Shown here piece by piece: positions 29,081-30,749 of a stretch of 64,000 bases of DNA. Origin of the DNA: Synechococcus sp. WH 8020. Lineage in GTDB: Bacteria > Cyanobacteriota > Cyanobacteriia > PCC-6307 > Cyanobiaceae. The translations under genes were made by a program, and so were the position numbers. Location of the stretch: the NCBI RefSeq assembly GCF_001040845.1, contig NZ_CP011941.1:2548890-2612889 (forward strand), read 5' to 3'. The notes under the pieces were generated by a model, which was not told where the DNA came from, did no database searches, and worked only from the letters and a program-made list of their open reading frames with translations. How positions within the stretch are numbered: the stretch's first letter is position 1; the number at the start of each line of letters is the position of its first letter.

Positions 29081-29953
29081 ATGCGAACGCAACTGCTTGA
29101 GGCGTTGCAGAACGATTGGGGTCCGCTGCAGGGCTGCCAGTGCAAGACCCTCGAGCCTGTTGGTAGTGCCTCGACTTGGCGTGCTGACTTGTCAGATGGG
29201 AGATCGTTATTTCTCAAGCTGGCATCGCCAGCCATGCTCAATGCTGAAGCCCGGGGGCTCCGCTCCTTACAGCAATGGGCTGACTCCACGCTTCTGTTGA
29301 TCCCGGATCCGCTTGGGATTGTCCCGGTGGGAGAGCTTGCTGCTTTGATCTTGCCTTGGCTGGAGTCTGGGCGAGGGGATCAATACGACCTTGGTCGAGG
29401 CTTGGCCCTCCTTCATCGAAGGTCTGCGGACGCAGGGATCGATCGATTTGGTTGGGATGAAGAAGGATTTATCGGCTTAGGTCCGCAACCAGCTGGGTGG
29501 TTGACGTCTTGGGGTCACGCTTTTGTGACCTTGCGGCTCACCCCCCAACTTCAGCTGGCATCAACATGGGGCGTGGCTCTGGATCAACTCGAACCTTTGC
29601 TTGCTGCAACACAGGTTTGGTTGGATCAACATGAGCCCCATCCCTGTCTCGTTCATGGTGACCTGTGGGGAGGAAATGCCTCAGTGCTCGCAGATGGACG
29701 GGGAGTTTTGATTGATCCAGCCTGTTGGTGGGCTGACCGGGAGGTTGACTTGGCGATGACTCGCTTGTTTGGAGGATTCAGCGCCCGATTTTACGAGGGC
29801 TATCAACTGGAATGGCCCTTAAACCCTAGTTATAACGAGCGAATTGAGGTCTATAACCTCTATCACTTGCTGAATCATGCCAACATTTTTGGTGGTGCCT
29901 ATAAACAACAATGCCTCACGGCATTGAATGCCATGAGGTCATTGTTGTTGTGA
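29081..29953 (+). CDS. Fructosamine kinase family protein
   Basis: A 290-residue protein of the fructosamine-3-kinase/aminoglycoside-kinase fold. The catalytic loop is VHGDLWGGN (191-199), followed by the magnesium-binding IDPACWWADREVDLAM. Family members phosphorylate sugar adducts on proteins, so a deglycation role is plausible. Its last 28 nt form the left end of the 385-bp tandem repeat, and a copy of those bases lies at 30311-30338. Confidence 0.88.
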   Translation: MRTQLLEALQNDWGPLQGCQCKTLEPVGSASTWRADLSDGRSLFLKLASPAMLNAEARGLRSLQQWADSTLLLIPDPLGIVPVGELAALILPWLESGRGDQYDLGRGLALLHRRSADAGIDRFGWDEEGFIGLGPQPAGWLTSWGHAFVTLRLTPQLQLASTWGVALDQLEPLLAATQVWLDQHEPHPCLVHGDLWGGNASVLADGRGVLIDPACWWADREVDLAMTRLFGGFSARFYEGYQLEWPLNPSYNERIEVYNLYHLLNHANIFGGAYKQQCLTALNAMRSLLL

Positions 29954-30310
29954 CTGAGAGAGACAATGAAGCAGGCTTCAGCCGAGGTATTCACTGCGCA
30001 TGGTTTGAACGCGATTCATTAATGCGGTTCTCTTTTCACTTGTGGTCAGATTTTCCCAGCTCCATTGGCCAACCACGACAACGCCGAGCAGCTCAAGTAG
30101 TCCTGGCACGACAGGAAGAAGAGCAATGGTATCGAGAATGCCTTTAATCAGAATTTGGGCAACGATGACCGCTGCAAAAATTCCAACGACTTTGCCGATA
30201 AGACTGGCTTTGCTCCAGTCCATCTTGCCTAAGGTCTCGTTGACTTTCCCGAGAATCTCGCTGTAGAACTCAGAGAAGTTAGTGGTTTCTGCGCTGTTGG
30301 ATGGTTCGCT
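29926..30310. repeat. Direct repeat, copy 1 (385 bp)
   Basis: Aligns base for base and without gaps to 30311-30695, with roughly 30 mismatches (about 92% identity by eye). It spans the last 28 nt of the fructosamine-kinase gene, the short spacer and nearly all of the first CAAD gene. Confidence 0.9.
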
Positions 30311-30319
30311 GAATGCCAT
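29978..30319 (-). CDS. CAAD-domain membrane protein, duplicate copy
   Basis: A 113-residue CAAD (cyanobacterial aminoacyl-tRNA synthetase appended domain) protein. Such domains anchor proteins in thylakoids; stand-alone forms resemble plant CURT1. An amphipathic helix (about 13-32) precedes two hydrophobic segments (41-62 and 64-84), then WSWENLTTSEKR. Compared with the upstream copy it lacks the first 17 residues and begins MAF, encoded by the antisense of duplicated fructosamine-kinase 3' sequence. A GTG at 30379 is an alternative start. Confidence 0.8.
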   Translation of the reverse strand: MAFSEPSNSAETTNFSEFYSEILGKVNETLGKMDWSKASLIGKVVGIFAAVIVAQILIKGILDTIALLPVVPGLLELLGVVVVGQWSWENLTTSEKRTALMNRVQTMRSEYLG

Positions 30320-30695
30320 GAGGTCAATGGTGTTGTGACTGAGAGAGGAAATGAAGCAGGCTTTAGCCGAGGTATTCACTACGCATGGTCTGAACGCGAT
30401 TGACTAATGCGGTTCTCTTTTCACTTGTGGTCAGATTTTTCCAGCTCCATTGGCCAACCACTACAACGCCGAGCAGCTCAAGCAGTCCTGGTACGACAGG
30501 AAGAAGATTGATGGTGTCGAGAATGCCCTTAATCAGAATTTGAGCAACGATGACCGCTGCAAAAATTCCAACGACTTTGCCGATACGACCGGCTTTGCTC
30601 CAGTCCACCTTGTCTAGGGTCTCGTTGACTTTCCCGAGAATCTCGCTGTAGCGCTCAGAAAAGTTAGCGGTCTCTGCGCTGGTGGATGGTTCGCT
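30311..30695. repeat. Direct repeat, copy 2 (385 bp)
   Basis: Immediately abuts copy 1. Its left 28 nt are a displaced copy of the fructosamine-kinase gene end; its right edge lies inside codon-level sequence shared by both CAAD genes (SEPS). Beyond 30695 the ancestral CAAD 5' end continues uniquely. Confidence 0.9.
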
Positions 30696-30749
30696 GGTGT
30701 CAGCGGTCCAAGTTGAATCACTCGTCGGGGTGGTGGACTCCTCGCTCAT
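30363..30749 (-). CDS. CAAD-domain membrane protein, ancestral copy
   Basis: A 128-residue CAAD protein. A polar Ser/Thr-rich N-terminus (MSEESTTPTSDSTW) is followed by the helix FSERYSEILGKVNETLD, two hydrophobic segments with a VVPG turn, and the conserved SWKNLTTSEKRTALVNRV. ATG 30749 was preferred over the TTG at 30809. It keeps a full N-terminus, so it is probably the parent of the copy downstream. No synthetase gene adjoins it. Confidence 0.82.
   Translation of the reverse strand: MSEESTTPTSDSTWTADTSEPSTSAETANFSERYSEILGKVNETLDKVDWSKAGRIGKVVGIFAAVIVAQILIKGILDTINLLPVVPGLLELLGVVVVGQWSWKNLTTSEKRTALVNRVQTMRSEYLG

Follow-up and report, generated by a model that had tools for sequence, protein, structure and literature searches.

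A lineage-specific tandem duplicate of a CAAD gene in Synechococcus sp. WH 8020 that appears to start within half of its parent's former terminator

Results and discussion

The window analysed here is a 64,000-nt stretch of contig NZ_CP011941.1 from Synechococcus sp. WH 8020, and all positions below are window coordinates unless a genome locus is named. Two CAAD genes lie head to tail on its minus strand. The upstream, parental gene (30363..30749; 128 aa, beginning MSEESTTPTS) is the orthologue of the single copy found in relatives, and the downstream daughter (29978..30319; 113 aa, beginning MAFSEPS) follows after a 43-nt spacer (30320..30362, minus strand), which runs from the parent stop to the daughter start and holds no remaining terminator. 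Both open reading frames score well above the curated cut-off of 30.7 bits for the CAAD family (Pfam PF14159), the daughter at 64.1 bits and the parent at 69.1 bits. Convergent with them, on the plus strand, is a fructosamine-kinase gene (29081..29953; PF03881, 229.5 bits), and a JAB-domain gene and a ThiF-rhodanese gene complete the Pfam-identified neighbourhood. Both copies contain a full CAAD domain, and by domain family and layout they can be likened to CurT (CURT1), with the same helix before two membrane spans and the same C-terminal helix; CurT itself functions in thylakoid shaping and in division (PMC12462475). Elsewhere the genome encodes two further stand-alone CAAD proteins, of 234 and 220 aa, each with a long extension at the N-terminus—at G000:C1:448410-448658 (L114 696-1400, minus strand) and at G000:C1:879307-879528 (L115 370-1032, plus strand), the latter shared by some but not all of the genus genomes.

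The daughter copy occupies a left duplication unit (29926..30310) that directly adjoins a right unit (30311..30695) comprising the parent copy minus its first 18 codons. An initial annotation, made from the letters alone, had described abutting, gap-free 385-bp segments with about 30 mismatches, and alignment gives exactly 30, without gaps. A repeat finder and self-BLAST of the window agree on the pair (29925-30311 versus 30310-30696; 92.2% identity, E 7e-161), and self-BLAST returned no other duplication of this kind within the window. The first 28 nt of either unit are the final 28 nt of the kinase open reading frame, also as annotated; the left breakpoint falls in the loop of a hairpin within the 3' end of that gene, and the right breakpoint at codon 19 of CAAD. 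Translations bear out the proposed N-terminal replacement: the daughter reads MAF and then SEPSNSAE, and the parent reads TADTSEPS at the same place. The daughter ATG (30319) and MAF are encoded by bases antisense to the kinase gene, and the predicted daughter protein includes stretches specific to it, such as MAFSEPSNSAETTNFSEFYSEILGK. That an in-frame ATG arose here as a rare accident can be set aside: 21 of 98 nearby left breakpoints (about 21%) would have yielded one. No Shine-Dalgarno sequence was recognisable by eye upstream of either start, and a sigma-70 scan, which covers promoters of that type only, found no promoter-like site in the region.

The hairpin at the left breakpoint (29905..29948, minus strand with respect to CAAD) is probably the intrinsic terminator of the CAAD gene. 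Folded on the plus strand it reaches −25.5 kcal/mol (z −5.6), a stability matched by none of 200 shuffles, and a terminator scan classes it as terminator-like on the CAAD (minus) strand. It combines the stable stem and following U-rich tract (TTGTTTAT) that define an intrinsic terminator at the sequence level. Each of the eight nearest relatives has the same stem on the 3' side of CAAD, most with a U-rich tail and several with a U run of about 8. Across eight distinct sequences the stem is 94% paired. Two-sided changes occur in one pair only, which does not exceed what shuffles give, the stems being too conserved for covariation to be seen. The stem is therefore supported by pairing and position rather than by covariation. 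About 1% of window positions are no more than 2 nt from the midpoint of a perfect stem of at least 6. We also noted a daughter-side A-to-T change at 29942 (A in the parent copy and in all eight relatives), which lengthens the outer stem of this hairpin.

One half of the terminator-like hairpin is lost at the junction between the units. When the junction is aligned with the terminators of relatives, a kept 5' arm, CCTCATGGCATT (30312..30323, minus strand), remains, and the in-frame daughter ATG lies within it. The fold itself is gone (−5.5 kcal/mol, z +0.67). With only the 5' arm left, the terminator of the parent seems to be gone, the daughter would lie 43 nt downstream of the parent in an operon, and the daughter start codon appears to be carried by the former terminator arm. 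This refines the earlier statement that the ATG came from the antisense of a neighbouring gene: the bases are indeed kinase antisense, but that description missed that they belong, as its 5' arm, to the terminator-like hairpin of CAAD itself; it also overlooked the parent's apparent loss of this hairpin and the template-switch mark at the breakpoint. A second, short hairpin, CGCTG-GTGT-CAGCG (30691-30704), has its apex about 3 nt from the right breakpoint and is imperfect in relatives; we rejected it as a signal, given that about 5% of positions are equally near one as good.

Beside the left breakpoint the hairpin bears a further mark. At 29920..29926 (plus strand) relatives read AGCAATC or close variants, which we took as the ancestral state, and the window genome reads GGCATTG, the exact reverse complement of the opposite hairpin arm. 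One template switch within the hairpin predicts precisely these three substitutions, as in quasipalindrome template switching, a known bacterial mutation process (PMC7202029) that can perfect RNA stems (PMC8794818). Described cases show the same multi-base change at the apex, making the arms more perfect (PMC7202029, PMC8794818), whereas here the change coincides with a duplication breakpoint; the template switch may have accompanied the duplication or preceded it. The order of changes bears on the breakpoint homology. The present sequence shares 2 bp (TG), as initially annotated. Base 29926, however, is G in the window genome, where the seven nearest relatives all have C, so the 2-bp homology existed only if the template switch preceded the duplication; a duplication that came before the change would have had 0 bp. 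The microhomology reading holds in the sense of short-homology breakpoints of 0-2 bp.

We then asked how the locus looks in other genomes, sampled at one genome per species. The gene is present in all 31 genomes of the genus, with two copies in the window genome and one in each of the other 30 (in one of these, G022, as a fragment at a contig end). A family-wide search of 400 genomes returned 368 matches, again with two copies only in the window genome and one in each of the other 367. In near relatives a lone copy is flanked by the same neighbours, and DNA alignments of these genomes to the window stop exactly at the junction (query 1231/1232). In a tree built from the coding region, daughter and parent are sisters (support 99/96), with end branches of 0.083 and 0.002, respectively, and 11 derived bases common to both copies are absent from the eight nearest relatives. 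The locus thus shows what is expected of a tandem gene duplication—an abutting direct repeat, copies that are mutual closest relatives, and a single copy at the same place in outgroups—and unit, junction, sister relationship and the lack of a second copy in relatives can all be read from the sequence itself. The initial annotation had predicted one CAAD gene in near relatives and had named two genes with unrelated flanks in all of them as a finding that would speak against it; relatives proved single-copy at the same locus, and the lineage-specific origin it proposed is upheld by the genus and family counts and by the tree. From the sister relationship and the shared derived bases it follows that the duplication postdates the split from every sampled relative. 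Synonymous divergence (dS) between daughter and parent is about 0.18, as against 0.37-0.39 between the parent and its two nearest orthologues, placing the duplication at roughly half the age of that split.

Divergence between the copies is lopsided. When the 30 differences were polarised, 24 were daughter-derived, 5 parent-derived and 1 unclear (24 versus 5, p 0.0005). Coding changes number 12 non-synonymous and 11 synonymous on the daughter branch, against none and 3 on the parent branch; the silent changes taken separately (11 versus 3) give p 0.057. Of the 55 positions conserved at 95% or more, the daughter retains 51 (residues numbered from the S of SEPS). It has lost R15 and N63, identical in every one of the 86 distinct homologues with coverage there, and has changed D28 and V30, at least 95% conserved; in these four residues, and in lacking the variable N-terminus of the parent, it departs from the CAAD family. 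Some substitutions are adjacent—three at 30123-30125 (N63A with a silent neighbour) and two at 30267-30268 (R15F)—and these runs may be multinucleotide mutations.

The rate comparison between copies that the initial annotation had proposed gives a whole-gene omega of 0.515, not distinguishable from 1 (p 0.14), with 0.057 for an orthologue. The annotation's term "gene birth" goes further than the data if taken to mean a functional new gene. These values, the near parity of 12 non-synonymous and 11 synonymous changes, and the loss of two otherwise invariant residues give some weight to a reading on which the daughter is a non-functional duplicate in neutral drift that only its short length and fairly young age have kept intact. 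Neutral simulation left the daughter stop-free in about half of runs, and in 4-7% of runs, indels uncounted, it combined no stop with 12 or fewer non-synonymous changes. Drift has to contend, however, with a Pfam CAAD score that is barely lowered, with the lack of any stop, frameshift or indel in the daughter's 385 bp despite the dS between copies, and with an omega of 0.145 for the transmembrane hairpin (p 0.011 versus 1) beside 1.08 for the rest of the protein, a split picked after seeing the data. The transmembrane hairpin of the daughter looks constrained on these figures, and we lean towards some constraint being left on the daughter; pure drift is the lesser prospect, yet one with a substantial share of the probability. 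Either the daughter is a nascent paralog or it is a gene still decaying.

The lopsided silent changes could also suggest that the second copy came from another strain, by recombination with a diverged allele rather than by duplication in place followed by divergence, and a few daughter bases do match some relatives. But the copies are sisters with derived bases in common, an imported working allele should not carry 12 non-synonymous changes at positions largely retained among orthologues (omega about 0.05), and no daughter-like allele was found in any genus or family genome searched. We rejected introgression as the main account on the sister relationship and common derived bases, and consider it very improbable. 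Tandem repeats are common sites of misassembly, but an assembly artefact is next to negligible here: it would yield near-identical copies, not 30 differing sites mostly polarised on one branch, and the genome is a single contig at 99.99% completeness.

Conclusions

The account we favour, at a probability of roughly 75%, is one illegitimate tandem duplication from the terminator loop to CAAD codon 19, giving a two-gene operon with a relaxed daughter. A single replication-associated event with 0-2 bp of homology would have copied 385 bp, from the loop of the CAAD terminator hairpin inside the convergent kinase gene end to that codon. The parent transcript would then read through into the daughter, making a two-gene operon that ends at the one intact hairpin. 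The daughter would be translated as a CAAD protein with MAF in place of the parent's first 18 residues, under constraint probably relaxed mostly in the soluble and amphipathic helices, with the transmembrane hairpin kept. On present sequence evidence the daughter is most likely a CAAD paralog of young age and relaxed constraint that owes its expression to read-through.

The event is of an ordinary kind with an unusually legible anatomy, in which a halved terminator has become leader and start codon. Spontaneous microhomology duplications with effects on expression are known in bacteria (PMC11111574), and the present case shares with bacterial short-homology tandem duplications the head-to-tail copy and the 0-2 bp at the ends; it differs from them in that the breakpoint halves a terminator and the remaining arm carries a new start codon. 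Among the titles listed by a literature search, none gave a precedent for terminator-halving duplications. A broader idea, which we regard as unlikely, is that replication errors at terminator loops are a general route to operonic paralogs: the upstream copy would lose its terminator, the former terminator arm would serve the new copy as leader and start codon, and that copy, expressed at once, would be free to evolve, here into a functional variant of CAAD whose amphipathic helices are altered.

The duplication at this locus took a single step and can be dated in relative terms. It affects a gene that is single-copy in the 367 other matching family genomes, and its mechanism is still readable in the loop breakpoint, the halved terminator and the start codon from the arm that was left. 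Two questions can be put to it directly: is a tandem duplicate expressed from birth when its parent loses the terminator, and can a family of thylakoid-shaping proteins accommodate a second copy that has changed?
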